From Lamprocystis purpurea DSM 4197 (lineage in GTDB: Bacteria; Pseudomonadota; Gammaproteobacteria; Chromatiales; Chromatiaceae), in the NCBI RefSeq assembly GCF_000379525.1, contig NZ_KB902527.1, forward strand, positions 1 through 47,247: DNA of 47,247 bases, given 5' to 3'. Shown piece by piece: positions 15,969 through 36,636 of the stretch (positions are counted from its first letter, which is position 1; each line of letters starts with the position of its first letter). The notes under the pieces were generated by a model. The model did no database searches. It saw nothing but the letters and a program-made list of their open reading frames with translations, and was not told the DNA's origin. The position numbers and the translations under genes are program-made.

Positions 15969-16745
15969 ATGGAGGCTCGATCCAAGGTCTCTTCCTGCCT
16001 GGCCATCAAAGGATCCCTGATCGATGAAACCTTCGCGGTGTTCTGCGGCTGGGACTACGCCGCCTCGAAAACCGACAATCTCAAGCGTGCTCGCGACGAA
16101 AACACCATCGGCGCCAAGAGTGCCAACTGGGCGCAGAATGTGTCCTGGGCGGTCAGCCGCCGCTTCGATCCCGCGGGTCGCGACCGCCCGCTCGTGGAGC
16201 TTGCCAAATCGGGGTGTGACCGGGAAGTCTGGCAACCGCTGCTCCTCTACCACCTGACCCGCGACGAGTTGCTCGTCCGCGATTTCCTCGTCAACTGGCT
16301 TTACCCTCAGTTACGCGCCGGTGCCTACCGTCTGCGCCCCGAGGACGTGCTTCCCTACTTGCACAGCCTGAGCAACAGAAAAAACATCGAGTGGTCAGGC
16401 AACTGGAGCGAGGCCACGACCAAGCGTGTGGCGTCAGGCCTGTTGCGGCTCGCCGTCGACTTCGGGCTCCTCACGGGCACACAGTCACGGGAGTTTTCCT
16501 CCTACCACCTACCGGAGCAGAGCTTCATGTACCTGCTGCACGCCATGACGGACCGCGAGGCGAACGCCCGGCGTATCATTGATGCCGAGGACTGGCGCCT
16601 GTACTTGATGGACACCGCCGACGTGGAGCGCGAGTTGCTGCGCTTGCACCAGTTCCGCAAGCTGCACTACGAGGTCGCCGGCAGCCTCGCCCAAATCAAA
16701 CTGCCGGCGGCATCCGCCGCCGAGTACGTGAGGGAGCTCGGCTGA
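15969..16745 (+). CDS. brxA: BREX protein BrxA (DUF1819)
   Basis: This 258-residue protein has the DUF1819 pattern: SCLAIKGSLIDETFAVFCGW, LLLYHLTRDELLVRDFLVNW, then RSWGxx-like spacing through VASGLLRLAVDFGLLTG and SFMYLLHAMTDREANARRII. BrxA is a conserved small DNA-binding-type component of the BREX core. Length is normal for the family. The start ATG 15969 is 2 bases after brxE, and its TGA overlaps the brxB ATG by one base. Confidence 0.85.
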   Translation: MEARSKVSSCLAIKGSLIDETFAVFCGWDYAASKTDNLKRARDENTIGAKSANWAQNVSWAVSRRFDPAGRDRPLVELAKSGCDREVWQPLLLYHLTRDELLVRDFLVNWLYPQLRAGAYRLRPEDVLPYLHSLSNRKNIEWSGNWSEATTKRVASGLLRLAVDFGLLTGTQSREFSSYHLPEQSFMYLLHAMTDREANARRIIDAEDWRLYLMDTADVERELLRLHQFRKLHYEVAGSLAQIKLPAASAAEYVRELG

Positions 16746-17323
16746 TGCCCGACTGGAAGGCGCGCCTGACCCAGCAACTCGAACCGGTGCTGAAGCAACC
16801 GGACCCCCGGCAGCAGCTCAGCGCCTACCACGACATGCCTTATGCCATCTTCCGCTATCCGCCGGAGGAGGAGTTTGGCGTCCGCCGGCAGGTCTCGCTG
16901 TTGCGCACGCGACTGGAACAGTTGGGCAAACGGGTCACGGTCATCTCGCTGGCCGAATGCCTCGCAGCCGCCCTGGAAGCGGAAGGCATGGGGCCCGCGG
17001 CACTCATCGACGCCGAAAAATCAGTGGGCCTGGAGGTCACGGTCGACACCATCTTCCAGATCCTGAGCGAGTACCAACCTCTGGACGAACTGGTCGCCCG
17101 CCGCATCCCCAGTGACGCGGACCCCCTGCGCGACCTGGTGTTCATCGTGCGTGCCGGCGCGCTCTTCCCCATGTATCGCACCTCCGCGCTGCTGGAGCAG
17201 CTCAAGGGCAAGGTCCAGGTGCCCGCCGTCCTGTTCTACCCGGGCGAACTGGACGGCGCCGCGGGGCTGCGGTTCATGGGTGTGCTGGATGCGGAGCATA
17301 ACTATCGGCCGAAGATTTTTTAG
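16745..17323 (+). CDS. brxB: BREX protein BrxB (DUF1788)
   Basis: This 192-residue protein matches DUF1788: DPRQQLSAYHDMPYAIFRYP, PEEEFGVRRQVSLLRTRLEQ, then VFIVRAGALFPMYRTSALLE and VPAVLFYPGELDGAAGLRFM. BrxB is a core BREX component thought to work with PglZ and BrxC. It is full length. The stop codon TAG at 17321-17323 is the last codon before a long GTCGTC hairpin region, and the stop itself overlaps the repeat consensus (TAGTCGTCGG). Confidence 0.85.
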   Translation: MPDWKARLTQQLEPVLKQPDPRQQLSAYHDMPYAIFRYPPEEEFGVRRQVSLLRTRLEQLGKRVTVISLAECLAAALEAEGMGPAALIDAEKSVGLEVTVDTIFQILSEYQPLDELVARRIPSDADPLRDLVFIVRAGALFPMYRTSALLEQLKGKVQVPAVLFYPGELDGAAGLRFMGVLDAEHNYRPKIF

Positions 17324-17516: not shown

Positions 17517-20500
17517 ATGACTACAATCAAAACCCTCTTCGCCAACGCCATCGACCGTCGTATCGAGGAGGTCATCAAGGTCGATCAGGCCGACGCGGCG
17601 ATCATCCGCGACGAACTGGCCGAATACATCGTCACCGACTCGATCCGCGCGCATTTTCTGAAGATCTTCGAGCACTACCAGACCACCTGGCAGAAGCCCA
17701 ACGAAGGGATCGCCATCTGGACCTCGGGGTTCTTCGGCTCGGGCAAGTCCGGCTTCGCCAAGTACCTCGGTCTTGCGCTGGCCAACCGCGACATCCTCGG
17801 ACAGGGCGCCGGGGAACTGCTCGCTCAGCGCTGCAATGACACCAAGGCCCAGGTCCTGCTGACCAACATCGCCGAGCGCATCCCCACCGAGGCGGTGATC
17901 TTCGACGTCTCCACCGACCGTGGCATTCGCACCGGCAACCAGAGCATCACCGAGATCATGTACCGGCTCTTCCTGCAGAGCCTGGGCTATGCACGGGATC
18001 TCGATCTGTCCGAGTTGGAGATCACCCTGGAGGAAGAGGGCCGCCTCGACGCCTTCAAGTCCAACTACCGGGAGGTGTTCGACAAGGACTGGGACTACGA
18101 GAAGGGCAAGATCGCCACCGCCGTCCAACAGGCGAGCCGCGTCATGCACGTCATGGACCCGGCCACCTACACGACGGTCGACAGTTGGCGCGAATCGGCC
18201 ATGCAACGCGCCGACATCACCCCCGGCGATCTGGCCGCCCGCTGTCTGGAATTGATGTCCCGCCGGCGGCCCGGCAAGAACCTCCTGTTCGTCATCGACG
18301 AGGTCGGCCAGTTCGTCGCCCGCGACGTGCAGAAGATGCTCGATCTCTCGGCGGTCGTGCAAAGCCTCGGGCGGGTCGGGCGCGGCAAGCTGTGGATACT
18401 CGTCACCTCCCAGGAAAAACTCACCGAAGTTGTCGGCGGCCTGGACGACCGCCGGGTCGAACTCGCCCGCCTGATGGACCGCTTTCCGTCCGAACTTCAG
18501 GTCCACCTGGAGCCCTCCGACATCTCGGAGGTCACCAGCAAGCGCGTGCTCGCGAAGAACGCCGAGGCCGAAAAGCGGCTCCGCGAACGCTTCACCGAGC
18601 ACCGCGGCCGGCTGACCGACAACACTCGCCTCACGGCGGACATCACGCTGCCGGAACTGACGGCCGACGCCTTCATCGACCTCTATCCGCTGCTCCCTTA
18701 TCAGATCGACCTCATCATCCAGATCGTCTCCGGCCTGCGGACCCAGGGCGGGGCGAGCAAGCACGTCGGCGGCGCCAATCGCACCATCATCAAGCTCGCC
18801 CAGCAATTACTCATCCACCCGGACGTGGACCTGGCCAGCCAACCCATCGGCACCCTGGCGCGTGTGGACCAGATCTACGACCTCGTCTCCGGCAATATCG
18901 GCAGCGAGATTCGCGCCAAGATCGCGGACATCGGTACAAAGATCGCCCATCCGTCCGCCCAACCGGTCGCCAAGGTGATCTGCCTGTTGCAGTACGTGCG
19001 CAGCGTTCACCGGACGGCCGAGAACATCGCCGCCGCACTGCACCCGGCCATTGATGCCGATTCACGCCTGGTCGAGGTCCGACAGGCACTCGACGCCCTG
19101 GAGAAGGGCCTGATGGTCCGCCGCGGCGACGATGGCTACCGGATTCCCTCGCCGGCCGAGGATGATTGGGAACGCCAGCGCGCCGCGCTGGTCCCCAAGC
19201 CCGGCGACACCGCCCGCCTGCACGCCGAGGCCGTCACCGCCCTCTGGCAGCCGCAACCCTCCCACAACCTGCTGGACGTCAAGCCCTTCAAGGCGGGGCT
19301 CTACCTGGGTGAGCGCCTGGCGGTGGAGGGGGACATCCCGTTTCACCTGGCCCTGGCCGAGTCCGGGACTGAATTCGATCAACAAGTGGAGGCATTCCGC
19401 CGTCGCAGCCAGACCGAAACCCAGGCCGTCTTCTGGGTCGCTGCCATCCATGAGGTCATCGACCGCGAGACCGTCGAACTCCACCGCTCCAAAGAGATCC
19501 TGTCCCGCAAGGAGCGGGGCGCCCAGACCAAGGACGAGTCCGCCCTGGTGGCGGAGGAGAAGATCCGCCAGCGTCGCCATCAGGACGAGCTCCGGCGCCT
19601 CATCAAACAGTCCCTGCTCACCGGCACCATCTTCTTCCGCGGCAACGACCGCAGCCCGGACGAGGGGGCCGGCGAGGTCTCCCGCACCGCGGCCAAGGTC
19701 CTCTCCCAGGCCCTGCCGGAGGTCTTCGACCGCTTCGCGGAGGCCGCCGCGCGGGTCACCAAGAATGACCTGGATTCACTGCTGACCACCGAGAACCTGC
19801 GGGGACTGACACCCGTCTATTCAGACCTGGGACTGGTGCGGGACCAGGGCGGCAAGCCCGTCTTCGACGTGGAAACCGGGGTGCTCGCCGAGGTGCTGGC
19901 CCGCATCGAGAACCGCACCAGTTACGGTGAGACCGCCAGCGGGCGCTGGCTGACTGACGAGTTTGCCAAGGAACCCTTCGGCTGGGAATTTGACACCGTT
20001 CGGCTCCTCGTCATCGCCCTGCTGCGCGCCGGCAAGATCGAGGCGACCAGCAAGGGGCAGGTCATCGACTCCGCCCTGTCACTCGACGCGCGCACCACCT
20101 TCACCAACAACAACCTGTTCCGCCAGGCATCCTTTCGCCCGCGCACCACCGACTGCGAGTTCACGGACTACATCGAGGCCGGGGAGGCCTACAAGACCTG
20201 CTTCGGGAAAGAGATCCAGGAGTACGAGGAAAACCTCATCGCGGCGGCCATCCGCGAAACCACGGAGGGCTTCGAGGAAATGCTGCGGGAAGTCCTCGCC
20301 CAGCTCGACAAGCATGGGCTCCCCGGGGGCGAGGTGATTGCCGGGGCACTGAACAACAGCGTGGGCTTCCGCCGCCAGCGCGACTGCCAGACGCTCAAGG
20401 CCTTCACCGCCTGCCACCAGGCGCTGAAAGAGGCTATCAAGCGGGGGGCCGAACTCGCCAAGACCCTGACGGAGCCCGCGCTCCACGACCTGGGCCGGGC

Positions 20501-21056
20501 GCGCAAGGCGCTCGATAGTCTCTGGCCCTTCCTGGAGCACGAGCCGGACTTGAGCGACGGCGACCGGGACCACGCCGAGCAGCTCAAAGACCTGCTGGCG
20601 CGGGAGTCCTTCTTCCGCGAACTGCCGGCCATCGATCAGCACGCCAAGGCCCTGGAGACCGCCCACCAGGCCCGCCTGAAACAGGCGCTCGAGGCCCGAA
20701 CCGCGGCTTACGCGGACGCCCTCCAACAACTGCGCGGCACCCCTGGTTGGGAAGAGGTCGGCGACGAGCAGCGCGACCGCATCGCTGAGCCGCTGGCGAC
20801 ATACATTGTCGCGAAGGCCGCCACCGCGTCGATACCCCAGCTCAGAGCGGACCTCGACGCCTGCCCGGTCCGGCGCGATAAGGCCGTCGAAGACCTGATG
20901 CGCCTGATTGACGGCAACCGGGTCGTCAAGATCAGTGCCGCCGGCTTCTTCTCCGGGGGCATCGAGAACGAGGAACAGCTCGATCAGGCGCTCGACGGGC
21001 TCAAGGAACAGTGCCTGGAGCTCATCGGCGCCGGCAAAAAGGTCTTAGTCCAATAG
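17517..21056 (+). CDS. brxC: BREX protein BrxC, P-loop ATPase
   Basis: This 1179-residue protein has Walker A GFFGSGKS at residues 71-78, Walker B LLFVIDE with D261-E262, and the long helical C-terminus typical of BrxC/PglY. BrxC is the large ATPase shared by BREX types 1 and 5-like systems and is needed for host methylation and phage restriction. Length and motif spacing are normal. The start ATG 17517 (MTTIKTLFANAIDRRIEEVI) matches the family start and directly follows the hairpin repeat. The following gene starts 9 bases after the stop. Confidence 0.95.
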   Translation: MTTIKTLFANAIDRRIEEVIKVDQADAAIIRDELAEYIVTDSIRAHFLKIFEHYQTTWQKPNEGIAIWTSGFFGSGKSGFAKYLGLALANRDILGQGAGELLAQRCNDTKAQVLLTNIAERIPTEAVIFDVSTDRGIRTGNQSITEIMYRLFLQSLGYARDLDLSELEITLEEEGRLDAFKSNYREVFDKDWDYEKGKIATAVQQASRVMHVMDPATYTTVDSWRESAMQRADITPGDLAARCLELMSRRRPGKNLLFVIDEVGQFVARDVQKMLDLSAVVQSLGRVGRGKLWILVTSQEKLTEVVGGLDDRRVELARLMDRFPSELQVHLEPSDISEVTSKRVLAKNAEAEKRLRERFTEHRGRLTDNTRLTADITLPELTADAFIDLYPLLPYQIDLIIQIVSGLRTQGGASKHVGGANRTIIKLAQQLLIHPDVDLASQPIGTLARVDQIYDLVSGNIGSEIRAKIADIGTKIAHPSAQPVAKVICLLQYVRSVHRTAENIAAALHPAIDADSRLVEVRQALDALEKGLMVRRGDDGYRIPSPAEDDWERQRAALVPKPGDTARLHAEAVTALWQPQPSHNLLDVKPFKAGLYLGERLAVEGDIPFHLALAESGTEFDQQVEAFRRRSQTETQAVFWVAAIHEVIDRETVELHRSKEILSRKERGAQTKDESALVAEEKIRQRRHQDELRRLIKQSLLTGTIFFRGNDRSPDEGAGEVSRTAAKVLSQALPEVFDRFAEAAARVTKNDLDSLLTTENLRGLTPVYSDLGLVRDQGGKPVFDVETGVLAEVLARIENRTSYGETASGRWLTDEFAKEPFGWEFDTVRLLVIALLRAGKIEATSKGQVIDSALSLDARTTFTNNNLFRQASFRPRTTDCEFTDYIEAGEAYKTCFGKEIQEYEENLIAAAIRETTEGFEEMLREVLAQLDKHGLPGGEVIAGALNNSVGFRRQRDCQTLKAFTACHQALKEAIKRGAELAKTLTEPALHDLGRARKALDSLWPFLEHEPDLSDGDRDHAEQLKDLLARESFFRELPAIDQHAKALETAHQARLKQALEARTAAYADALQQLRGTPGWEEVGDEQRDRIAEPLATYIVAKAATASIPQLRADLDACPVRRDKAVEDLMRLIDGNRVVKISAAGFFSGGIENEEQLDQALDGLKEQCLELIGAGKKVLVQ

Positions 21057-22963: not shown

Positions 22964-23414
22964 TGACAACGCGTGTTGAAGGCATTTGTGAACACGGTCA
23001 GGTGCGCCTGCGTGGCCGCTGCCGGGGGTGGCGTGCGGGCGGATCGCGGTGACTGTCCTCCCGGATACCCTGCCCCCAAGGTCATCGCGAGCGCTCCCGC
23101 CCGCGGTGCATCCGCCAGCGGCAACGGCGCCAGACGAAGCGACGACGGCGACGCCAGTCGCGCCATTGACAGGTGATGCCGTAGTCGACCATTACCAGCC
23201 GCGCACTGAGCTTGGCCACGAACTCCTCGAATTGCGGCGTGCCTATATCCTGGGCGGAGGCAAACTGCTGAGCTGGGATGAACTCGATGAAGAAATGCGT
23301 GAACGTCGTGGCCATGTTTCGCGTCGGCAAGCGCCCGATGCGATCACTGCGGGCGACGACGACATGATCGCCCACCTGGAAGAGGTGTCGCACCTGCCAG
23401 GCAACGCACCATGA
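22964..23414 (+). pseudogene. Frameshifted antitoxin of a PIN-type TA module, toxin absent
   Basis: ATG 22964 opens MTTRVEGICEHGQVRLRG, then the frame shifts by one near 23025 into LPGVACGRIAVTVLPDTLPP and continues YQPRTELGHELLELRRAYIL, GGGKLLSWDELDEEMRERRG to 23414. The N-terminal motif (T-x-x-EGI-x-E-x-GQVRL...LPG) is the same as the intact antitoxin at 25560-25572, and the C-terminal motif (YQPRTE...GGGKLLS-x-E) matches the one at 28886. No PIN gene follows. It is a relic of an antitoxin inserted in front of pglX. Confidence 0.6.
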
Positions 23415-23571
23415 CGCTCGTGCGTGGCACGGCATAGACCGCCGCGAATATGAGCGCGCATATATTTTTCGCGCGCAAGTTTATTTATACGCATCCTTTA
23501 ACAAGAACAATGTATTAGCGACAGCCTACCGCTCAATTCTAAAGTCACCCCGAACCCCGAACTCCCAAAAC

Positions 23572-25554
23572 ATGGACAAAGACACCCGCAACCGCATCCA
23601 ACGCGCCACCCAGGCCGCGCGCGGACTGCTTGAACAGGATTTCGAGGACCAGTTGACGGGTGTGTTCGACATCCGGCTGGACGGCACCATCGCGGGCGAG
23701 CCAGGGAGCCATCTGGACCCGGCGCAGCGGATTGTGAGGATCAAGCTGGTCGCCGCGGTCGAGCACTGGGTGTCGTCAGTCGTCGGTCGTCAGTCTTCGG
23801 CCGACGACCGACGACCGACGACCGACGACTACGCCGAAGCGGTTGCGAGTTACCGGCGGGAGGCGGCGTTCACGACCCTGAACCGGTTCGTGGCGCTCAA
23901 GATGCTGGAGGCCCGTGGGCTGGTGCAGGAGTGCATCTCGCGGGGCGAGCAGTCGTCGGGGTTCAAGGAGTTCTGCGGGCTTGCGCCGGGGCTGGTACAG
24001 CTTCCGGACCGCGGCTACCGGCTCTACATTGAGAGCCTGTTCGACGAGATCGGTCGCGAGGTGCGAGTGCTGTTCGACCGGCGCGACCCGGCGAGCTTGC
24101 TGTGGCCCGCGCGTGCGACTCTCTTCGGCTCTCAGCAGCCGGGCTTGCTGGAGATCCTCAACGACCCCGAACTGGCCGGCGTCTGGGATCAGGACGAGAC
24201 CATCGGCTGGGTCTATCAGTATTTCAACGGCGACGACGAGCGCCGGCAGATGCGCGCCGAGAGTCAGGCGCCGCGCAACAGCCGCGAGCTGGCTGTCCGT
24301 AATCAGTTCTTCACCCCGCTCTATGTCGTCCAGTTCCTCACGGATAACAGCCTCGGCCGCATCTGGTACGAAATGCGCCGGGGCGACACCCGTCTCAAGG
24401 ACCTCGACTATCTGGTGCGGAAGGGGTCGTCGGTCGTCGGTCATCGGTCATCGGCGAAAGACTCTCCGGCTGACGACCGGCGACTGACGACTGACGACTC
24501 TCCGACCGACGACGCAGCCCCTACCCGCACCAAAAAAGACCCGCGGGATCTCAGGATTCTGGACCCCGCGTGCGGCTCCGGGCACTTCCTGCTCTATGCG
24601 TTCACCCTGTTGCTGACGATCTACCAGGAGGCCTGGGAGGACCCGGATGCCCCCGCCGCCGAGGTCACTGGCCGCACCCTGCGCGACGACTATCCGGACC
24701 GGGACGCCATGCACCGGGCACTGCCCGGCCTCGTCCTGCGCCACAACCTGTACGGCATCGACATCGACCCCCGCGCCGCCCAGATCGCCGCCCTGGCCCT
24801 GTGGCTGCGCGCCCAGCGGGGCTATCTGGAGCTGGGTGTCCCGCGCGGGGAGCGCCCGCCCATCCAGCGCACCAACATCGTTGTCGCCGAGCCCATGCCC
24901 GGCGAGCCCGAGTTGCGGCGGGAGCTGCTGACGACCCTGGACCCGGACCTGGCCCGGCTGATCGAGCAAGTCTTCCAGCGGATGGAACTGGCGGGGGAGG
25001 TCGGCTCCCTGCTGCGCATTGAGGAGGACATCCGCGCCGCCGTGCGGGAGGTCTACGGCGAGCAGGGACCCCTGTTCCGCGCCCTGGACGAGGCGCGCTG
25101 GCAGCAGGCGGAGGCGGCCGTCCTGCACGCCCTGCGACACTATGCCGAGCAGTCGGTCAACGGCCAGGCCTATCGGCGTCGCCTGTTCAGCGAGGACGCC
25201 GCCCGCGGTTTCGGATTCATCGACTTGTGCGGGCTGCGCTTCGACGTCACCCTGATGAATCCGCCCTTCGGCGCCCCCTGCGCCCGCGCCGGTCCCTACC
25301 TCGCGGGCGCCTATCCCCGCTCCAAGGGCGACCTGCTCGCCGCCTGCGTCGAGCGTGGGGTACAGTGGCTGCACCCCGCCGGTATCCTGGGCGCCATCAC
25401 CTCCCGTACCCCCCTGTTTCTGACCAGCTACCGGCACTGGCGCCAAGGCGTGCTGCTCGGCGAGGCCAGACCCACGGTGCTGGCGGATCTGGGCCACGGG
25501 GTCATGGACGCGGCGATGGTCGAGGCCGCGGCCTATTGTCTGATCAAACAGTGA
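23572..25554 (+). CDS. pglX: PglX N-terminal half: BREX adenine-specific DNA methyltransferase
   Basis: This 660-residue protein has a helical N-terminus, then SAM motif I DPACGSGHF at about 331-339, YGIDIDPRAAQIAALALWLR and the N6-adenine catalytic motif NPPF at 563-566 (VTLMNPPFGAPCAR). PglX methylates an asymmetric host sequence and marks self DNA for BREX. Family members are about 1200 residues. Here the protein ends with VEAAAYCLIKQ and the remainder is the separate gene at 26295. Two GTCGTC repeats are translated in frame (residues 68-86 and 286-314), the second just before motif I. Both halves may assemble into an active enzyme, or the locus may be phase-locked off. Confidence 0.9.
   Translation: MDKDTRNRIQRATQAARGLLEQDFEDQLTGVFDIRLDGTIAGEPGSHLDPAQRIVRIKLVAAVEHWVSSVVGRQSSADDRRPTTDDYAEAVASYRREAAFTTLNRFVALKMLEARGLVQECISRGEQSSGFKEFCGLAPGLVQLPDRGYRLYIESLFDEIGREVRVLFDRRDPASLLWPARATLFGSQQPGLLEILNDPELAGVWDQDETIGWVYQYFNGDDERRQMRAESQAPRNSRELAVRNQFFTPLYVVQFLTDNSLGRIWYEMRRGDTRLKDLDYLVRKGSSVVGHRSSAKDSPADDRRLTTDDSPTDDAAPTRTKKDPRDLRILDPACGSGHFLLYAFTLLLTIYQEAWEDPDAPAAEVTGRTLRDDYPDRDAMHRALPGLVLRHNLYGIDIDPRAAQIAALALWLRAQRGYLELGVPRGERPPIQRTNIVVAEPMPGEPELRRELLTTLDPDLARLIEQVFQRMELAGEVGSLLRIEEDIRAAVREVYGEQGPLFRALDEARWQQAEAAVLHALRHYAEQSVNGQAYRRRLFSEDAARGFGFIDLCGLRFDVTLMNPPFGAPCARAGPYLAGAYPRSKGDLLAACVERGVQWLHPAGILGAITSRTPLFLTSYRHWRQGVLLGEARPTVLADLGHGVMDAAMVEAAAYCLIKQ
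23772..23830. repeat. GTCGTC palindromic repeat, copy B, inside pglX
   Basis: A 59-bp hairpin unit with complementary arms, translated in frame as SSVVGRQSSADDRRPTTDD (PglX residues 68-86). Its length keeps the reading frame open. Confidence 0.85.
24427..24515. repeat. GTCGTC palindromic repeat, copy C, inside pglX
   Basis: Arms GTCGTCGGTCGTCGGTCATC and GACGACCGGCGACTGACGAC flank the loop GCGAAAGACTCTCCGGC. It is translated in frame as residues 286-314, immediately upstream of the SAM-binding motif. Confidence 0.85.
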
Positions 25555-25559
25555 AACGG

Positions 25560-25898
25560 ATGGGAACGGCCATGCTGACAAGCATCGAAGGTATATACGA
25601 GAACGGCCAGGTGCGGCTGCTGGAGCCGCTGCCCGGCGTGGCGCGGGCGCGGGTGGTGGTGACCCTGCTGCCCGAACCACCGGCACCCCTGCCGCCGCCC
25701 GCGCCAGACACCAGCGATCAAACCGGGAGCCTGGCCCCGGACGGGGCCGCAGTGGCGCTCAGTGCGTTGGGGCGCGATCTACTGGCCATCCGCCAACGCG
25801 CCCTGGCACGCGGGTTGGCACTCGCCCCCGTGGACGCCATCCTGGAGGAGGTCAGGCAAGGGCGCGCGGAGGCCGGCGATGACGACGACCTACGTTGA
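25560..25898 (+). CDS. Antitoxin of the PIN module inserted in pglX
   Basis: This protein of 112 residues from ATG 25560 (or 108 from ATG 25572) reads MLTSIEGIYENGQVRLLEPL, PGVARARVVVTLLPEPPAPL, then a proline/alanine-rich linker and ALGRDLLAIRQRALARGLAL with EEVRQGRAEAGDDDD. The N-terminal segment (T-x-x-EGI-YENGQVRLLEPLPG) is typical of short antitoxins paired with PIN-domain toxins. It starts 5 bases after the end of the pglX 5' part and overlaps the toxin gene by 20 bases, the usual tight coupling. The neutralising part is probably the acidic C-terminus. Confidence 0.75.
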   Translation: MGTAMLTSIEGIYENGQVRLLEPLPGVARARVVVTLLPEPPAPLPPPAPDTSDQTGSLAPDGAAVALSALGRDLLAIRQRALARGLALAPVDAILEEVRQGRAEAGDDDDLR

Positions 25899-26298
25899 CG
25901 CCAACGCCCTGATCGTCGCCTATCGCGGCGACCAACCGGCGGCCCAGGCGGCCATCGCCCTCCTGGGCGATCCGGTCCGGCGCTTCGTCGCCAGCCCCTA
26001 TCTGCGGCTGGAGACCCTGCGCAAACCGCTGTTCTACCGGCGTGAAGACGAGATCACCTTCATGGAACGGTACTTCGCCACGGTCAGCCTGTGCATCCCC
26101 ACCAGTGACCAACTGGTCGCGCGGGCGCTGAGCCTTGCGGCCCAGTGGCACCTGGGGGCGATGGACGCCTTGCACGCCGCCGCCGCATTGCAGGCCGGGG
26201 CCGAGGTCTTCGTGACCATGGAGCGTCCCACCAAGCCCTTGTTCCTGGTTCCGGGACTCAACGCCGTATCACTTCACCCCCAGGAGTCCCCTCAGTGA
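25879..26298 (+). CDS. PIN-domain ribonuclease toxin (VapC-like)
   Basis: This 139-residue protein has PIN acidic residues D7 (TTYVDANALIVAYRG), E45 (YLRLETLRKPLFY), D96 (LGAMDALHAAAALQAG) and E115 in the FVTMERPT segment where most PIN proteins have D. PIN toxins are Mg-dependent RNases that cut tRNA or rRNA when the antitoxin fails. The gene overlaps the antitoxin gene by 20 bases, and its TGA overlaps the GTG start of the second pglX part. The module therefore lies entirely within pglX and is co-transcribed with BREX. Confidence 0.85.
   Translation: MTTTYVDANALIVAYRGDQPAAQAAIALLGDPVRRFVASPYLRLETLRKPLFYRREDEITFMERYFATVSLCIPTSDQLVARALSLAAQWHLGAMDALHAAAALQAGAEVFVTMERPTKPLFLVPGLNAVSLHPQESPQ
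26282..26286 (+). promoter_or_regulatory. Ribosome binding site for the second pglX part
   Basis: AGGAG, 8 bases before GTG 26295, lies inside the PIN toxin coding region and gives the second pglX half its own translation start. Confidence 0.55.
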
Positions 26299-28817
26299 GC
26301 CTTTTCCTGCGCCTGCTGGAAGACGACGACAAGGCCCTGGCCCTGCGGACCGCCCTGCACGCCGTCGCCGCCGGCGAGTCCGATCCGCGGGTGTTCGAGG
26401 CCGATCCCAATGCCTTCGCGCTGGTGCCGGGGGCGCCGTTTGCGTATTGGATTAGCCCGAGTGCCCAAAGCGCATTCAGTCGCCTTCCGAATTTCGAGGG
26501 GGAACGACGGACCGCCAAGTGCGGAGCTGGGACGCTGGATGATTTTCGCTTCCTGCGATTGGACTGGGAAGTGCCGGTTTCAGTCGCCGAGTGGGTCTCA
26601 TTTGCGAAAGGAGGAGCCTTCGGACGTTATTATGCGGACTTGTATCTGCGCCTCGCTTGGGCCAATGCAGGCAGAGAGATCCAATGTTTTGTTGAAGCCA
26701 AGGTCGGCAGCGCTACCCGGAAGATCCAAGCCCAACCCTGGTACTTCCGCCCCGGCCTCACCTGGCCGCGGAGAACCAACGGGCTGAGCTTCCGTGCCAT
26801 GCCGGCAGGCTGCATCTTCGCCGACAAAGGCCCAGCCGCCTTCGTCGACGGCGACGACCCCGAGTCCCTGCTCGCGCTCTGTGCCCTGGTCAACTCGGCG
26901 CCCTTCGGCGCCTTGGTCGCGCTTCAATTGGCGAGAACCGAGCTCGCCCAATCCTATGAGGTCGGCCTGATCCAGCAGACCCCGGTCCCCCCGCTGACGA
27001 CCGACGACGGACGACCGACGACCCACGCCCAAACCCTGTCCACCCTGGCCCATCGCGCCTGGTCCCTCAAACACGCCCTCGACACCGCCACCGAAACCTC
27101 CCACGCCTTCCTGCTGCCGGCCCTGCTCCAGGTTCCCGGCGAGGACTTGGCCGGCCGCGCCGCGGCCTGGTCCGCTCGGGTCCAGGCCACGGAGGCGGAG
27201 CTTGCCGACATCCAGGCGGACATCGACGACCGCTGCTTCGCGCTCTACGGGATCGACGGCGAGGACCGACGGCGGATCGAGGTCGGCCCCGGCGGCACGC
27301 TCGATGCGGCGCCCAACGACCCAGGCGAGGACCTGGGCGAGGACGACGAGGGCCCCGGCGCGGTCGCCGACCCGGCCCCGCTGACCGCCTTGCTGGTCTC
27401 CTGGACCCTCGGTGTCGCCTGCGGACGCTTCGACCTGCGGCTCGCGACCGGCCAGCGCGCCGCGCCCGCTGCGCCGGGACCCTTCGACCCCCTGCCAGTC
27501 TGCCCGCCCGGCCAATTGCAGAACGCCCAGGGCCTGCCGGCAGGAGCCGATGACCTGCCCGCCGCGTATCCCGTCGACATCCCTTGGGACGGCATCCTGG
27601 TGGACGATGCGGGGCATGAGCGCGATCTCGCCGCGCGCAGCCGGCTGGTGTTCGATCGCGTCTTCAGCGATGACGCGGACTCCGCCTGGCGCGAGGCCGC
27701 CGAGATACTCGAAGGCCGGGGGAATGATCTCCGGACCTGGTTCGCGCGGTCATTCTTCGCGGACCACATCAAGCGCTGCTCCAAGAGCCGCCGCAAGGCC
27801 CCGATCTACTGGCAGCTCGCCACCCCCTCGGCGCGCTACTCGGTCTGGCTCTATTACCATCGCTTCACTCGGGACACCCTGTACAAGGTCCTCAACGACT
27901 CTGTGACCCCCAAGCTCCAACACGAGGAGCGCAAGCTGATGGGGCTGGTCCAGGGCGCCGGTGGCACCCCGACCGCCAACCAGCGCAAGGAGATCGCCGA
28001 GCAGGAAGGCTTCGTCGAGGAACTCCGAACCTTCCGAGAAGAGGTCGGTCGGGTTGCCCCATTGTGGAATCCGGACCTCAACGACGGCGTCATCATCAAC
28101 TTCGCGCCCCTGTGGCGCCTGGTGCCCCAGCACCGGGCCTGGCAAAAGGAGTGCAAGGATTGCTGGGGCAGACTCACCGCCGGCGACTACGACTGGGCAC
28201 ACCTGGCGATGCATCTCTGGCCCGAGCGGGTCGTCCCCAAGTGCGCCGCGGACCGCAGCCTCGCCATCGCCCACGGGCTTGAAGCGGTCTTCTGGGAAGA
28301 GTCGTCGGTCGTCAGTCGTCGGTCGTCGGCGCAAGACTCTCTTGCTGACGACCGAAGACTGACGACTGACGACGTACGACCCGGGAAGTGGCTGCCCCTC
28401 ACGGTTGCGCAGGCAGAGGTCGACCGCCTCATCGCGGAACGCACCTCCGCCGCGGTCAAGGACGCGCTGAACAGCCTGCTGGAGGCCCCCGCGCCGGCCA
28501 CTGGCAGTGGCGGTGGCCGCAAGTCGTCGGGACGGGGCCCGGTTCGGCGCGTTCCTACTGCCCCGAAGACAGATAATGCCGGCGCAGGCTCCGGACCTGC
28601 AACGGGTTCCGCTGCCCCTGATCCGGTCATGCTGGACGCCGTCAAGCAGGCCATCGCCGCGGCCCAGGGTGCGACCAGCAAGTCCGAGGTCCTCGCCGCC
28701 ACCGGCCTCACCGACGCCCAGTGGAATGCCGCCATCAACGCCTTGCTCGCCGCGGGCACAGTCACCAAGACCGGCGCCGGTCGCGGAACCCGCTACCATC
28801 TGAACCCTGAACCCTGA
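26295..28817 (+). CDS. PglX C-terminal half (BREX methyltransferase, specificity part)
   Basis: This 840-residue protein starts on GTG 26295, overlapping the toxin stop as GTGA. Residues 1-200 continue the PglX fold (SLFLRLLEDDDKALALRTAL, RKIQAQPWYFRPGLTWPRRT, SFRAMPAGCIFADKGPAAFV). The middle contains VSWTLGVACGRFDLR and WDGILVDDAGHERDL. The C-terminal part has YWQLATPSARYSVWLYYHRF and WRLVPQHRAWQKECKDCW, all standard PglX blocks that bear target recognition. The last 70 residues add a winged-helix-like tail. A half GTCGTC unit (26994-27025) and a full one (28302-28373, residues 670-693) are translated in frame. Confidence 0.9.
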   Translation: MSLFLRLLEDDDKALALRTALHAVAAGESDPRVFEADPNAFALVPGAPFAYWISPSAQSAFSRLPNFEGERRTAKCGAGTLDDFRFLRLDWEVPVSVAEWVSFAKGGAFGRYYADLYLRLAWANAGREIQCFVEAKVGSATRKIQAQPWYFRPGLTWPRRTNGLSFRAMPAGCIFADKGPAAFVDGDDPESLLALCALVNSAPFGALVALQLARTELAQSYEVGLIQQTPVPPLTTDDGRPTTHAQTLSTLAHRAWSLKHALDTATETSHAFLLPALLQVPGEDLAGRAAAWSARVQATEAELADIQADIDDRCFALYGIDGEDRRRIEVGPGGTLDAAPNDPGEDLGEDDEGPGAVADPAPLTALLVSWTLGVACGRFDLRLATGQRAAPAAPGPFDPLPVCPPGQLQNAQGLPAGADDLPAAYPVDIPWDGILVDDAGHERDLAARSRLVFDRVFSDDADSAWREAAEILEGRGNDLRTWFARSFFADHIKRCSKSRRKAPIYWQLATPSARYSVWLYYHRFTRDTLYKVLNDSVTPKLQHEERKLMGLVQGAGGTPTANQRKEIAEQEGFVEELRTFREEVGRVAPLWNPDLNDGVIINFAPLWRLVPQHRAWQKECKDCWGRLTAGDYDWAHLAMHLWPERVVPKCAADRSLAIAHGLEAVFWEESSVVSRRSSAQDSLADDRRLTTDDVRPGKWLPLTVAQAEVDRLIAERTSAAVKDALNSLLEAPAPATGSGGGRKSSGRGPVRRVPTAPKTDNAGAGSGPATGSAAPDPVMLDAVKQAIAAAQGATSKSEVLAATGLTDAQWNAAINALLAAGTVTKTGAGRGTRYHLNPEP
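26994..27025. repeat. GTCGTC repeat, half copy D, inside pglX 3' part
   Basis: Only the right arm (CTGACGACCGACGACGGACG and on) is present, translated as LTTDDGRPTT. Confidence 0.65.
28302..28373. repeat. GTCGTC palindromic repeat, copy E, inside pglX 3' part
   Basis: A 72-bp hairpin with loop GCGCAAGACTCTCTTGC, exactly 24 codons, translated as residues 670-693 (start SSVVSRRSSAQDSLADDRRL). Confidence 0.85.
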
Positions 28818-28885
28818 ACCCCCCACACTCATGAGACATCCAATGTTGGGCACTGTCCCAGGCCTTCTTGAAGAAGGAGTCAGCG

Positions 28886-29152
28886 ATGCACAACCTAACC
28901 TTTGAAACCAATGTCCCGACCGACCATCTGTTACACCTGCCGGATGATCTGCCGGCGGGTGTTCTGGTCAGGATTACGGTTGAGCGCCTGGCGGACAAGA
29001 CGATGACTGAGGACTATCAGCCACGCACCGAAATCGCACGATTGGCGCTCGCGGCGCGCAAGGCGCACCTTGCGGGCGGGGGCAAATTGCTGAGTACCGA
29101 GGAGATCAGCGCAGAGGTCCGCCGCCGTCGCGGTGGTCTGGCTGATGAATGA
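28886..29152 (+). CDS. Orphan antitoxin-like protein
   Basis: This 88-residue protein from ATG 28886 (AAGGAG at 28873-28878) reads MHNLTFETNVPTDHLLHLPD, DLPAGVLVRITVERLADKT, YQPRTEIARLALAARKAHLA, then GGGKLLSTEEISAEVRRRRG. The second half matches the C-terminus of the remnant at 22964. No toxin follows directly; instead another antitoxin-like gene starts 21 bases later. It may lend immunity against PIN toxins elsewhere or be a leftover of recombination. Confidence 0.6.
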   Translation: MHNLTFETNVPTDHLLHLPDDLPAGVLVRITVERLADKTMTEDYQPRTEIARLALAARKAHLAGGGKLLSTEEISAEVRRRRGGLADE

Positions 29153-29173
29153 CCGGCCAAGGGGTAAATCGCT

Positions 29174-30941: not shown

Positions 30942-31537
30942 TCAGATTCGAACAACCCCCGAAGCCTGAACGGTTCCACGCCGGGGTAGAGGTTCCGGGC
31001 GCACGCTGGCTTGCGGATCATCCCGACGCCAAGCGTCCGTATGATTATTGGACCGCGTTCAAGAGCGAACTGGCTGACGGATTCAGGAATCTGTGTGCCT
31101 ATAGCGCCATGTATGAGCCGGTCGGCACTGTCGATCACTTCGAGAGCTGGGATAAAGACCGTAGCCGCGCTTATGACTGGAGTAATTACCGCTACGCGGC
31201 GGGTTGGATCAATTCCAGCAAGAAAACTATTCCAGCCAGTCAGATTCTTGACCCATTCGAAGTAGGGGATGATTGGTTCAGCATCATTCTCCCCTCGCTG
31301 CAGCTCGTTGTGTCTGAAGCGATACCTGATGAGTTCATAGATCGGGCCGAATTCGTATTAAAGCGGCTGCATTTGCGGGATGATGAACGGGTTCTGCGCC
31401 AGCGGCGGGAATGGTATCGTATGTATCAGGAAGGCGGGTTGAGCCTCAAAGAACTTTGGCTGAAGGCCCCTCTGATTGCAGCAGCGGTTGCAAGAGACGC
31501 CAACTCATCCTCGTATACCGGCCCACTCGCTTCATGA
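30938..31537 (+). CDS. HNH-like nuclease partner, PtuB-like
   Basis: This 199-residue protein contains CAYSAMYEPVGTVDHFESWD then RAYDWSNYRYAAGWINSSKK (residues 53-95), which aligns with the TIGR02646/HNH pattern D-H-F...Y.W.N......N..K. D66-H67, N83 and N92 are candidate active-site residues. The zinc-binding Cys-x-x-Cys seen in many relatives is missing (AGWINSSK instead), as in some PtuB-like members. The gene overlaps the ATPase gene upstream and pglZ downstream (ATGA at 31534-31537). The ATPase probably controls nuclease activation on phage cues. Confidence 0.7.
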   Translation: MIRFEQPPKPERFHAGVEVPGARWLADHPDAKRPYDYWTAFKSELADGFRNLCAYSAMYEPVGTVDHFESWDKDRSRAYDWSNYRYAAGWINSSKKTIPASQILDPFEVGDDWFSIILPSLQLVVSEAIPDEFIDRAEFVLKRLHLRDDERVLRQRREWYRMYQEGGLSLKELWLKAPLIAAAVARDANSSSYTGPLAS

Positions 31538-34053
31538 ATCCCTTCCACGACTACCTCTGCGCGCACCTGGACGAGTTGCTGCGCAAGCGCTCGGTGGTGG
31601 TCTTCTACGACCCGCGCAATGAATTCAATCCGTTCTTTGATCGCGAACTGGAGCCGCAGGACGGCGATCCGCTGCCGCGCGTGACGATCGGTATCCGCAC
31701 CGCCTTGCTCGCCCGCTACGCGGGTAGCTTCTTCGGCCTGCACGCGGCGGCCGTGCCGATCGTGGCGGCTGACCAGCCGGAACCGCTGATCCTGTATCTG
31801 CCGGGCATCTCAAGGGACCACGCGGGCTCGGTGCTGATGGAGCTGGAGCGGGGTGGGGCCTGTTATGAGCCGCAACTCAAGCGGCTGGCGCTGAACGTGC
31901 TGCGCCAGCGGTTCACCGATGGACAGATCGACGAGATGCTCCGGCCGGCCGCAGTGACCTACGACGATATCGTGGCCTTTCTGGCTCAGGGCGGACAGGT
32001 AGCCTCAGTGCTTCGCACCCTGTTCGGCGGCGCTCAAGGCGAGGCGTTGCTCACCGAGTGGCTGGCGTCCGACGCCAAGGACGGCGTCCTGGTGGAGAAA
32101 GAGGCACTGCCCGAGCTCCTCAAGCTGATCAGGGTGCGATTGGGTCTAGAACTTCCGGACGGCGCGACCTTCTCCCAGGCGCGGGAGAAGACCTGCCGGT
32201 ATGTGTTGGTCAACGAGTTCCGTGCCGATCTCGCTTGTGCACCGCCGCCGTCGGTCGGGATGGTGCCGGGTCCATCGACCAAGGAGCACCTTGAGCGGAT
32301 TCGCGATGTGGCGGAGGGCCTGCGGCGGCGCTATCCGCAGGCGTACCCGGGCCTGGCGGATACCGTGGAGCAGCAGTTGGGGCTCGCGGGGGCCGGCGTA
32401 CCGGCCGCTCATCTGGGGTCCATCGACACCTTCCGGTTCGAGGAGGGGGGGCTGCTCGCCCATGCCACGGCACTGATTGTGGGAAAGGACTTCGACGCGG
32501 CCTTGGGCATCGTCACGGCGCGTGGCCGCAGCTTCTGGGTCGACCGTGAGCTGCGCCGCCAGGCCCAGTGGGAGACGTGTCGGCTGATGGCGGAGCTCGG
32601 GCTTGAGCTTGAGCGGGTCCGCGTGGCACTGGGCAAGATGACAACTGATCCCGCCAAGTGGCTCACCGCCTATACGGCCGAAGACGGTTGGCATCGCGCC
32701 GACAGCCTCCAGCGACGACTGGAGGCCTGGGTCGCCAAGATGGACGACGAGCCGGAAGCGGAGCAGGCGCTGGCAGTCATCCGCAAGGCGCATGAATACC
32801 TGCTGCGGACGATGGCGGATGGATTTGCCAAGGCGTTCGCCGCAGCCGCCTGGACGGTGCCCGGCGCGCTTCACCAGACCCGCATCTACCCGGAGGTGGT
32901 ACAGGCCATGGGCGGGCGGGTCGCCTATGTCCTCGTCGATGCCATGCGCTACGAGATGGGGGTGGACCTGGCGCGCCAGATCGAAGGTGCCAAAGACCTG
33001 AGGGTCCAAGCGGCCGTTGCGGCGCTGCCGTCGATCACCCCCGTCGGGATGGCGGCGTTGCTGCCGGGGGCCGCGGCCAGCTTCGACCTGATCGATGCGA
33101 AGGGCAAGCTGGCGGCACGCATCGAAGGCACGGAGATGGCCGGTCTTAACGAACGGCTGAAGTTCCTCAAGGCCAAGGTACCGGATGTGGTGGAGATGAC
33201 CCTGGGCAGGCTGCTCAGTAGCACCCCGGCAATGATCCGCAAGAAGATCGGCAGCGCCTCGCTGGTGGTGATCCGCTCTCAGGAGATCGATTTCGCCGGG
33301 GAAACGGACAGTGACCTGCTTGCCCGGCAGGTGATGGATACCGTCATCGGCAATCTCGCCCGGGCGGTGCGGAAGCTCGCTGTCGCCGACATCGAGCACT
33401 TCGTCATCACCGCCGACCACGGTCACCAGTTCGCCATCCGCAAGGACGACGACATGAAAACCGACAGCCCCGGCGGCGTCACCCTGGACCTGCACCGCCG
33501 CTGCTGGATCGGTCATGGGGGCAGCACGCCGGCCGGAACCGTGCGGGTAGCCGGGGCAGAGTTGGGATACCACACTGACCTGGACTATGTCTTTCCGACC
33601 GGGCTCGGGGTATTCAAAGCAGGTGGCAGCCTGAGTTTCCACCACGGTGGGTTCAGCCTGCAGGAGTTGGCGATCCCGGTCGTCAGTCTGCGCATGACAG
33701 TCGGCAAATCGGCGAAGGTTCCCTGCGTGCAGGTCCGGATCGACGGCTATCCAGCGGCGGTGACCAACCGTACCTTCGGGCTCAAGGTGGGCGATCTGCT
33801 CGCGACTGAGCGGATCGTGCTGCGGGTCGTGCTAATGGCCGGCGCAGAAGAGGTAGGTCGCATTGGGATGGCGGTTGGCGGGGAGCTCGACCGCGGGAAA
33901 GGCACGCTGACACTAGCGCCGGGGACCGAGGCGAGTGTGGGCATGATGCTGACCAACGACACCTGCCAGTCGCTGCGGGTGGTGGTGCTGGATGCGCATA
34001 CGGATAGCGTGTTGGCCGAAACCGCTGAGCTGCCGGTGAAATTGGGGATTTGA
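31534..34053 (+). CDS. pglZ: BREX protein PglZ, alkaline-phosphatase superfamily
   Basis: This 839-residue protein starts at ATG 31534 (MNPFHDYLCAHLDELLRKRS, then VVVFYDPRNEFNPF), the usual PglZ N-terminus, and overlaps the HNH gene by 4 bases. The PglZ metal-dependent hydrolase core has VAYVLVDAMRYEMGVDLARQ (D469) and HFVITADHGHQF (D628, H629, H631). PglZ is the hallmark BREX protein and is required for defence; nuclease-like activity has been proposed for some members. Full length. The overlap shows that the ATPase/HNH pair was fitted into the operon without separating pglZ from upstream translation. Confidence 0.95.
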   Translation: MNPFHDYLCAHLDELLRKRSVVVFYDPRNEFNPFFDRELEPQDGDPLPRVTIGIRTALLARYAGSFFGLHAAAVPIVAADQPEPLILYLPGISRDHAGSVLMELERGGACYEPQLKRLALNVLRQRFTDGQIDEMLRPAAVTYDDIVAFLAQGGQVASVLRTLFGGAQGEALLTEWLASDAKDGVLVEKEALPELLKLIRVRLGLELPDGATFSQAREKTCRYVLVNEFRADLACAPPPSVGMVPGPSTKEHLERIRDVAEGLRRRYPQAYPGLADTVEQQLGLAGAGVPAAHLGSIDTFRFEEGGLLAHATALIVGKDFDAALGIVTARGRSFWVDRELRRQAQWETCRLMAELGLELERVRVALGKMTTDPAKWLTAYTAEDGWHRADSLQRRLEAWVAKMDDEPEAEQALAVIRKAHEYLLRTMADGFAKAFAAAAWTVPGALHQTRIYPEVVQAMGGRVAYVLVDAMRYEMGVDLARQIEGAKDLRVQAAVAALPSITPVGMAALLPGAAASFDLIDAKGKLAARIEGTEMAGLNERLKFLKAKVPDVVEMTLGRLLSSTPAMIRKKIGSASLVVIRSQEIDFAGETDSDLLARQVMDTVIGNLARAVRKLAVADIEHFVITADHGHQFAIRKDDDMKTDSPGGVTLDLHRRCWIGHGGSTPAGTVRVAGAELGYHTDLDYVFPTGLGVFKAGGSLSFHHGGFSLQELAIPVVSLRMTVGKSAKVPCVQVRIDGYPAAVTNRTFGLKVGDLLATERIVLRVVLMAGAEEVGRIGMAVGGELDRGKGTLTLAPGTEASVGMMLTNDTCQSLRVVVLDAHTDSVLAETAELPVKLGI

Positions 34054-34596: not shown

Positions 34597-36636
34597 ATGA
34601 CTGACCCCCCCCCCTCCCGCGACACCCTCGACGACAAGGTCAACCGGGTCTTCGCCGGCAAGGTGGTCCGCAAGGACCTGGTCCGCAAGGTCAAGGTCGG
34701 CGCCAACGTGCCGGTCTTCGTCCTGGAGTACCTGCTCGGCAAGTACTGCGCCTCGTCCGACGAGATGGCGATCCAGATGGGGCTGCAGGTGGTCAACGAC
34801 ACCCTGGCGGACAACTACATTCGCCCGGACGAAAGCACGAAGGCCCAGAGTAAGGTCAAGGAGGACGGTCGGCACACCTTCATCGACAAGGTGAAGGTCC
34901 GCCTGGTGGACTCTCAATACTGGGCGGAGGTCACCAACTTCGGGCACACCCATGTGCACATCCCCGACCGCTATGTGCGGGACTTCGACCGGCTCCTGAC
35001 CGGCGGCATCTGGGCGCAGGTGGACATGCGCTTCGAGTATGACGAAGAAACCAAGGGCAGAAATCCGTTCTGGATCGACAAGCTCACGCCCATCCAGCTC
35101 GCGAGCTTCGACCTGGAGGAGTACCGCCGCCTGCGCGCCGAGTTCAGTACCGATGAGTGGCTGGATCTGATCATGCGCAGCATGGGGTACGAACCGACAG
35201 TGATGGAACGGCGGGTCAAGCTCTTGTTCCTGTGCCGGCTGATTCCCTTGTGCGAGCGCAATTACAACCTGGTGGAGCTGGGACCGCGCGGCACCGGGAA
35301 GAGTTATGCGGTGCAGGAGCTTTCGCCCTACGCGGCCCTGCTCACCGGTCCGACGACGGTGGCGAATCTGTTTGGCCACATGAACGGCAAGCAGAAAGGG
35401 ATGCTGATGATTTGGGATGTGGTCGGTTTCGATGAGGTGGCCGATCTGCAGAAAATGCCCAAGGAGGTCATCACGACGCTCAAGACCTTCTGCGAGTCCG
35501 GCCAGTTCCAGCGTGGTCAGGAGGCCATGGCGGGGTATGCCAGCATCGCGATGTTCGGCAACACCCAGCAACCGATCGATGTCATGGTCCAGACGGGGCA
35601 CCTGTTCGCGCCCATGCCGGATGTGATCCGCGACGACATGGCCTTCATCGACCGGCTGCACTTCTACCTGCCGGGTTGGGAAGTGCCGAAGATGCGCAAC
35701 GAGCACTTCACCGATCACTACGGGTTCGTCATCGACTACCTGGCCGAGGCCCTGCGGGAGCTGCGCAAGCACAATTTTACCGAGATCATCGACCACTATT
35801 TCTCGCTGGGCGCCCATCTGAACGCGCGTGACCGCAAAGCCGTCCGTCGCACCGTCTCGGGACTAGTGAAGATCCTGCACCCCCATGGGCAGGTGTCTCA
35901 GGAAGACCTTGCTGAATTGTTGGAGTTGGCATTGGAAGGACGGCGCCGGGTGAAGGAGCAGCTCAAGAAAATGGGCTCCTTTGAGTACTACCAGACCTCC
36001 TTCAGCTATCTGGTCAACGACACCGGCGAAGAGACCTTTGTCGGTGTGCCTGAGCAAGGCGGTCGGGGCCTTATCTCAGCAGACCCGCTGCCGCCCGGTA
36101 CCGTCTATGCCGCCGCCGTGAGCGGTGACGGCACCGTTGGTCTCTACCGCGTCGAGGTGACGCTGTCCTCGGGTACCGGAAAGCTCAAGCTCGCCGGTGG
36201 TGTGAGCGGGGCGATGAAAGAGTCCGTGAGCCGGGCCTTCAGTTACCTGTCCGCGAACAAGACCGCCTTCGGTGTGCCGCGGGAGCTCGACACCTCGGAT
36301 TTCCATGTCGAGGTCATCGACCTGCTCGGCAACAAGGTCGAGGCCGAGATTGGCGTCGCCTTCTTCGTCGCCGCCTACTCGGCGCTGCGCAAGTCGCCAT
36401 CCCAGCCCGCATTGCTGGTGCTCGGTGACCTGAGCATCCAGGGCAACATCAAACCCGTGCGTTCTCTCACCGAGCCACTCCAGGTCGCCATGGACAACGG
36501 CGGCAAGCGGGCGCTGATCCCGATCGAGAACAAGCGGCAGTTCCTGGATGTGAACCCGGACGTGCTGGAGCAGGTCGACCCGGTGTTTTTCGGCGATATG
36601 CGCCAGGCGGCGTTCAAGGCACTTGGCCTGACATGA
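34597..36636 (+). CDS. brxL: BREX protein BrxL, AAA+ ATPase with Lon-like C-terminus
   Basis: This 679-residue protein has the conserved N-terminal block (LDDKVNRVFAGKVVRKDLVR, KVKVGANVPVFVLEYLLGKY), Walker A GPRGTGKS at 229-236, then MLMIWDVVGFDEVADLQKMP (Walker B region). A Lon-protease-like C-terminal domain with SPSQPALLVLGDLSIQGNIK and GGKRALIP lies at about 600-650. BrxL is the marker of type 1 BREX and acts as a multimeric DNA-binding AAA+ machine in phage blocking. Full length; last gene of the operon. The start ATG 34597 follows directly after the hairpin repeat. Confidence 0.95.
   Translation: MTDPPPSRDTLDDKVNRVFAGKVVRKDLVRKVKVGANVPVFVLEYLLGKYCASSDEMAIQMGLQVVNDTLADNYIRPDESTKAQSKVKEDGRHTFIDKVKVRLVDSQYWAEVTNFGHTHVHIPDRYVRDFDRLLTGGIWAQVDMRFEYDEETKGRNPFWIDKLTPIQLASFDLEEYRRLRAEFSTDEWLDLIMRSMGYEPTVMERRVKLLFLCRLIPLCERNYNLVELGPRGTGKSYAVQELSPYAALLTGPTTVANLFGHMNGKQKGMLMIWDVVGFDEVADLQKMPKEVITTLKTFCESGQFQRGQEAMAGYASIAMFGNTQQPIDVMVQTGHLFAPMPDVIRDDMAFIDRLHFYLPGWEVPKMRNEHFTDHYGFVIDYLAEALRELRKHNFTEIIDHYFSLGAHLNARDRKAVRRTVSGLVKILHPHGQVSQEDLAELLELALEGRRRVKEQLKKMGSFEYYQTSFSYLVNDTGEETFVGVPEQGGRGLISADPLPPGTVYAAAVSGDGTVGLYRVEVTLSSGTGKLKLAGGVSGAMKESVSRAFSYLSANKTAFGVPRELDTSDFHVEVIDLLGNKVEAEIGVAFFVAAYSALRKSPSQPALLVLGDLSIQGNIKPVRSLTEPLQVAMDNGGKRALIPIENKRQFLDVNPDVLEQVDPVFFGDMRQAAFKALGLT

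Follow-up and report, generated by a model that had tools for sequence, protein, structure and literature searches.

The BREX operon and its divided pglX gene

The window analysed here is a stretch of 47,247 nucleotides from Lamprocystis purpurea DSM 4197, one contig (C164) of a 6.9-Mb genome, and it carries a Type 1 BREX operon. The core set of such systems (brxA, brxB, brxC, pglX, pglZ and brxL) is present in full at the locus, and brxA, brxB, brxC, pglZ and brxL are matched by PADLOC models nearly from end to end. The features of the operon are as follows.

15969..16745, + strand: brxA (PADLOC PDLC02454, 2.4e-88)
16745..17323, + strand: brxB (PADLOC PDLC02459, 4.3e-56)
17517..21056, + strand: brxC (PADLOC PDLC02476, 1720 bits)
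21011-22726: Schlafen/AlbA-HATPase gene between brxC and pglX-N
23028-23414: antitoxin-like remnant 5′ of pglX-N
23572..25554, + strand: pglX-N, helical bundle and methyltransferase (Pfam, PADLOC and NCBIfam)
25572..25898, + strand: antitoxin-like ORF of 108 aa (position and homologues; no family match)
25879..26298, + strand: PIN-domain toxin with D7, E45, D96 and E115 (Pfam PF01850, 2.2e-9; alignment)
26295..28817, + strand: pglX-C (PADLOC PDLC02532, 1.9e-188, from model position 1)
28868-29152 and 29174-29473: two antitoxin-like ORFs between pglX-C and the Septu pair, neither with a PIN seen next to it
29610-30941 and 30938-31537: Septu pair PtuA and PtuB, between pglX-C and pglZ
31411..34053, + strand: pglZ (PADLOC PDLC02559, 1.9e-293; the match begins at ORF residue 42)
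34597..36636, + strand: brxL (PADLOC PDLC02506, 3.8e-287)
17323-17507, 23772-23829, 24426-24498, 26992-27022, 28301-28380, 34058-34137 and 34502-34595: arrays of the heptamer TCGTCRG

A Type 1 BREX system would be expected to encode a single PglX of about 1200-1400 aa, but the window has two open genes instead, separated by 740 nt: pglX-N, of 660 aa, which ends in VEAAAYCLIKQ before a TGA stop, and pglX-C, of 840 aa, which begins with GTG. The translation of pglX-N contains the DPACGSG and NPPF motifs, while pglX-C comprises the last part of the methyltransferase edge, a linker, the target-recognition domain, a spacer and the C-terminal region. The two genes flank an antitoxin-like gene and a PIN gene, and the claim of an earlier note on this DNA, that pglX is divided by an intact-looking toxin-antitoxin (TA) module, is borne out. 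The antitoxin-like ORF begins 17 nt after pglX-N (an in-frame ATG also lies at 25560) and is overlapped by the PIN gene by 20 nt. The GTG of pglX-C in turn overlaps the PIN stop by 4 nt (GTGA), with AGGAG 8 nt upstream, an operon-like geometry that fits the restart by translational coupling proposed in the same note. The acidic residues of the toxin, also held there to be in place, are so: the protein passes Pfam PF01850, and D7, E45, D96 and E115 are invariant among 10 aligned PINs. The upstream ORF has no Pfam or NCBIfam match, and we label it an antitoxin because of its position and because its homologues stand beside PIN genes (in loci L035 and L039). The window PIN found no match among PADLOC models, PDB sequences or phages, and among plasmids it matched four distant cyanobacterial records. 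A transposon-like target duplication around the module was considered on account of 6-nt CAGTGA flanks in the window, and was rejected because these are absent from the near-identical locus L038.

The two halves together account for almost the whole of PglX. On PADLOC model PDLC02527 (1332 positions), pglX-N covers positions 3-658 and pglX-C 666-1306; on the NCBIfam BREX-1 PglX model NF033452 (1210 positions), pglX-N covers 2-609 and pglX-C, from its residue 24, 646-1209, which is near-complete coverage, the halves scoring 363 and 260 bits and each falling below the whole-protein cut-off of 500. About nine or fewer model positions are missing when the unaligned ends of the halves are counted. 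PADLOC already holds half-length PglX models, of which PDLC02526 (640 positions) is matched by pglX-N and PDLC02532 (682 positions) by pglX-C from its residue 1. By alignment the break (site A) maps at about residue 610|617 of Salmonella PglX (8c45/8q56), roughly 45 residues before the hinge at residues 654-659 (PMC11341690), and our reading of the sequence places it between the penultimate and the final strand of the methyltransferase fold. The expectation that the break would separate SAM domain from target-recognition part with no residues lost thus stands as regards the near absence of lost residues, while the break does not lie exactly at that boundary. A structure prediction for pglX-C was too poor for use (mean pLDDT 42).

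Two further features of the operon deserve mention. At the place in locus L039 that is homologous to the orphan antitoxin-like ORFs of the window, both an antitoxin and a PIN are present (8254-8929). The TCGTCRG heptamers occur in tandem, mostly as inverted pairs, and almost only in the BREX operon: with up to two mismatches, 39 of 45 genome-wide matches to a heptamer 17-mer fall on the window contig (control, 4), and in genome G150 15 of 22 fall inside its pglX. Matches are found in six of seven genomes of the genus, some with just one to four. Four arrays lie in frame within the two pglX halves (SSVVGRQSSADDRRPTTDD and similar), and such arrays might permit phase variation by slippage or hairpin formation.

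Recurrence of the split and variety of its cargo

Split pglX genes with exchangeable cargo are found in purple sulfur bacteria and in certain related bacteria. Among 210 genomes of the order we count 17 split loci in 16 genomes, beside 7 unsplit copies that were read and 22 more judged unsplit by an open frame or a continuous match. A search with the N-half found 18 genomes at 1e-60 or better, and the loci read comprised 13 split and 6 unsplit copies, 1 unclassed (G160) and 1 cut by a contig edge (the second copy of G053). A C-half search of the same genomes (38 at 1e-10) added four split loci (L058, L059, L060 and L066) and one unsplit (L074, on the contig of L033). Its matches ran on across the break in L065, L067 and L071, and 19 further places had open frames of 1140-1592 aa, which were not individually read and one of which has a stop inside the match. 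Relics and partial loci (L061-L064, L068-L070, L072 and L073) stand outside these counts.

When 398 genomes sampled from the phylum were searched with the N-half of L085, a query that is itself split and hence biased, 16 genomes matched, 10 of them over at least 390 residues. Three of these ten are split (L085, L086 and L106, the C-half of the last of which would fall beyond its contig), and the other seven are single open frames of 1167-1299 aa, six of which were fetched. A search of the same sample with PDLC02532 found 9 of the 398 genomes, own genome included. In a class sample of 369 genomes the N-half at 1e-40 found only its own genome and one relative, unsplit by open frame. The N-half also matched 123 plasmid records, and among the 60 listed, 53 have a pglX-named feature under the match. 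Two plasmid records were read for splits. Plasmid pTHIMO01 of Thioflavicoccus mobilis (L045) has a split pglX, whose pglX-C is annotated as 'hypothetical'; the apparent split on a plasmid of Hymenobacter sp. BRD67 (H63) was dropped, since many genes of that record are annotated in short, frameshift-like pieces. An assembly artefact was rejected, since splits are also present in assemblies that are complete or nearly so (pTHIMO01, the three-contig G150, and the single-contig G118, G181, G183 and G859). The case that the earlier note had set against its own reading, of halves always separate and a TA absent, is not what we see, as unsplit homologues exist. Among the loci fetched there is no clean empty site, and the nearest unsplit alleles already differ beside the break.

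The break is found at two positions, which suggests at least two origins. All 13 split loci of the window's kind use site A, as do L058-L060, judged by their N ends, whereas L066, L085 and L086 are broken a little ahead of the hinge, at about Salmonella residue 640-648 (site B), and L106 shares that N end. Automatic placement was poor for the last N residues of the window, L039, L044, L045 and L051 and for the C starts of L045, L054, L058-L060, L066 and L085, and these were read by eye. The unsplit PglX proteins of L032 and L035 have an extra 70-90 residues or so (a very rough figure) at site A, as if the loop there may tolerate in-frame insertions too.

What lies between the halves is varied. 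PIN modules are the commonest cargo, in 10 of the 20 split loci read: a PIN with a small upstream ORF is present in the window, L038 and L005 (both assigned by near identity to the window), L039, L044, L048 (two modules), L049, L050 and L053, where the PIN-remnant-like ORF has no Pfam match, and L051 carries a PIN. The others hold an OLD-family ATPase with DUF4276 (L052), a UvrD-like helicase with DUF2290 (L045), Fic (L058), Fic, HEPN (under the Pfam cut-off) and a large ATPase (L059 and L060; Fic and HEPN were submitted from L059, the ATPase from L060), Schlafen and Fic (L066), Schlafen and an AriA/AriB-like (PARIS-like) pair (L085), Schlafen at a contig end (L106) and a UG5-nitrilase defence reverse transcriptase (L086); in L054 nothing could be recognised as cargo. 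All nine non-TA cargo proteins submitted to PADLOC match antiviral or candidate antiviral models, in a library that consists of such models only. The cargo of the window probably serves as a further layer of defence or is an addiction module carried along by the BREX operon.

The coupling seen in the window recurs with these unrelated cargoes. At 20 junctions both ends could be read (the window, L038 and L005 being near-copies), and at 14 of them the C-half start overlaps the last cargo stop, by exactly 4 nt at 11; at four it lies 2-19 nt downstream, and at two about 133 and 200 nt.

This distribution bears on the suggestion that the module is a fail-safe, in which the TA specifically guards the self-marking methyltransferase: should the operon be lost or repressed, the antitoxin would disappear and the PIN toxin be released. 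The single operon-like unit with its overlaps fits such a device, PIN modules are the most frequent cargo, and a scan of 22700-29200 found no promoter-like site, a weak test in which 0.7 would be expected by chance. Because half of the split loci have no PIN module, the fail-safe is not the general reason for the arrangement; in addition, one TA cassette has been exchanged as cargo (see below), and in Thiocapsa imhoffii a close relative of the window TA, with a PIN 72% identical, lies directly 5′ of an unsplit pglX (L035, 2451-3231). We therefore consider a guarding role doubtful.

Selection, decay and recombination around the break

The earlier note also raised the possibility of a silencing insertion, whereby the TA disrupted pglX and killed the methyltransferase, leaving the C-half to decay. 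Several loci do look damaged (L050, L051, L053, L054, L062 and L069; L062 and L069 are N-end relics only, outside the 20 split loci). The C-half is reduced to 234 aa in L051 and to a frame of 333 aa in L050, and in L005 it stops after 140 residues, near the contig end. In L048, L049 and L062 it is broken again near its residue 350 (13548-13982, 12190-12435 and 3209-3487, respectively), which corresponds by interpolation to about Salmonella residue 960, near which the spacer helices of that protein end (PMC11341690); in L049 and L062 this second break holds a HicB-like antitoxin gene (Pfam PF15919).

Against decay, 12 of 18 tabulated split loci keep an open C-half frame of 577-840 aa, although these were partly selected for being open; the others are rebroken or short, or run into a contig end or the limit of the stretch read. 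Between the window and G150, dN/dS is 0.16 for pglX-N (28 silent and 13 replacement changes), 0.33 for pglX-C (45 and 44), 0.19 for the antitoxin and 1.06 for the PIN, the last from only 2 silent and 6 replacement changes. Against G148 the values are 0.22 for pglX-N, 0.27 for the antitoxin and 0.34 for the PIN, and against G147, of the same genus, 0.40 for pglX-N, 0.16 for the PIN and 0.40 for pglX-C; other pairs give 0.11-0.19 for N-halves and 0.22-0.25 for C-halves. Both halves thus seem to be under selection, and the sign of it is clearest between the window and G150, both of which are split. Because both halves are under purifying selection, the split recurs in complete assemblies (and at two positions), and C-half starts are coupled to quite different cargo, silencing is disfavoured; the near full-length brxA, brxB, brxC, pglZ and brxL of the window also speak against it, and we regard it as improbable.

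Phylogenies suggest that the split has moved between alleles. In a tree of the whole N-half, which comes with a long-branch warning, split and unsplit forms alternate, with 9 changes of state, 8 of them forced by starred branches, and 109 of 500 shuffles gave as few; a tree of the first 330 residues likewise has 9 changes, 6 forced. In contrast, the split forms cluster in a tree of the last 120 or so residues before the break (4 changes, of which 2 are forced; no shuffle out of 500 gave so few). A count of fissions from the N tree alone was therefore rejected as a headline result, and there were possibly fewer independent fissions than that tree suggests. We read this as few fission events, recombined into different 5′ parts of pglX.

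In 60-nt windows, L048 and L049 are 75-93% identical in the body of pglX-N (62% in one window), 93-95% over its last 350 nt or so and 97-100% in the TA cassette, with lower values again in pglX-C, a pattern that shows a recent exchange of the cassette together with its pglX edge. The window and L005 agree in the N-half, the TA and about the first 53 residues of the C-half (94.8% at the DNA level to window position 26454) and differ in the target-recognition part beyond that position. Scars that fuse a start of pglX-C to an end of pglX-N occur in L048 (11293-11748), L051 (4392-3409) and L062 (1100-1260), and no two of them share a junction. Tandem split copies with a deletion between them would yield such scars, and L051 has a second pglX-N downstream.

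The cassette exchange and the scars, together with the orphan antitoxin-like ORFs elsewhere in the window operon, are also what would be expected if pglX can bear being split and modules of a selfish kind, TA or defence, simply gather there as the flanks recombine, with no functional link to the methyltransferase. Mere hitchhiking of this kind fits less easily with the stop-start coupling kept with many cargoes, or with the antiviral matches of all nine non-TA cargo proteins (from a library of such models, in which the window PIN matched none), and we consider it possible rather than probable.

A probable two-piece PglX and its relation to known systems

The explanation that we favour, and think probable, is that PglX is a two-piece enzyme in these bacteria and that the gap between its genes is a cargo slot. 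One operon would give both chains, pglX-N supplying the helical bundle and methyltransferase and pglX-C the DNA-recognition, specificity-like half, and the chains would associate into a working BREX methyltransferase, by analogy with the separate M and S subunits of Type I systems. The gap would be a tolerated slot for accessory defence or TA genes (in the window, an antitoxin and a PIN ribonuclease), with translation of pglX-C coupled to the last cargo gene, and strains could swap cargo when their pglX flanks recombine homologously. What the sequences show is the layout, its repeated appearance with varied cargo, the geometry of the coupling, the purifying selection on the halves and one recent cassette exchange; the two-chain assembly, the methylation and the role of the TA are inferred. 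That TA and antiviral genes exchange in the slot suggests that the enzyme functions as two chains and is encoded, on a common message, together with another tier of defence.

The literature lends the idea of a divisible PglX some support, because the protein is described as two lobes about a flexible linker, with a C-terminal domain that resembles Type I specificity subunits (PMC11842806, PMC11341690). Against two-chain function, the C-terminal domain of Salmonella PglX could not be expressed alone (PMC11341690), and assembly of an enzyme cut at site A may be demanding because part of the methyltransferase fold seems to lie on the C-half. The damaged loci, the higher dN/dS of pglX-C than of pglX-N (0.33 against 0.16 in the G150 comparison) and a terminator-like match on the + strand near the pglX-N end (25518-25533, one of four in the scan, a number at chance level) also weigh on that side. 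Alternatively, the halves could do separate jobs, with pglX-C acting, for example, as a stand-alone DNA-binding regulator. The genes are indeed apart, target recognition lies wholly within pglX-C, and G160 has a long C-half (L063) close to the beginning of a contig, where the preceding 790 nt or so hold no N-half. In the counted split loci, however, the halves are adjacent in one operon-like array, and we find this very improbable.

A bolder form of the two-piece reading can be put forward tentatively, and we think it rather unlikely as a whole: fission would have given PglX two subunits in the manner of Type I enzymes, and only a ribosome that has just finished the embedded defence gene would go on to make the specificity subunit, such that pglX becomes an exchangeable cargo bay tying self-marking, specificity and suicidal defence to one message, with recombination at its edges swapping cargo and specificity alike.

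With its split pglX, BREX is here a defence system that holds other defences within a core gene. If its halves work together, BREX methylation and specificity would be separable at a natural cut, providing a ready tool to study the assembly of PglX with other BREX proteins. Searches that expect a full-length PglX, or that meet half-genes recorded as 'hypothetical', will overlook such systems and their cargo.

The literature searched (preprints, subscription papers and supplements lay outside its scope) yielded no account of a pglX in two parts, in agreement with the earlier note's remark that a split PglX with a TA is not a standard BREX layout. Type 1 BREX systems are known to embed auxiliary nucleases or PARIS in the core locus, and PIN, HEPN, Schlafen and OLD-ABC/TOPRIM effectors occur in BREX loci (PMC12839542). 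The window resembles these in its core genes and in the classes of auxiliary effector within the operon. In that account the effectors are adjacent to or within core loci, whereas here they lie inside pglX, between its halves; a divided pglX is not mentioned in the main text of that paper, where the word 'split' is absent (PMC12839542). Type I restriction-modification systems offer a second parallel and a model of how the split may function, with separate modification and specificity genes in one operon and an embedded toxic or abortive module, as in the DarTG2 TA between hsdS and hsdR (PMC12255303) and the PrrC anticodon nuclease embedded in EcoprrI (PMC12707154). The window differs in that its methyltransferase is PglX, normally one chain and separated here by the division of pglX, and in that no HsdR was noted in the operon (no dedicated search was made). 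In Lactobacillus and others, pglX is accompanied by inverted or truncated second copies and undergoes phase variation by inversion; there, too, it is the variable gene of BREX, but the window shows fission with cargo rather than inversion. Finally, a 2024 preprint by Payne et al., cited in PMC12255303, reportedly describes 'guilt-by-embedding', the genetic embedding of defences between the genes of another system, and the PADLOC names HEC and PDC-M, which are among our cargo matches, presumably stem from that work. Both cases have defence genes carried in another system; for embedding within a single gene, as in the window, we found no earlier description.
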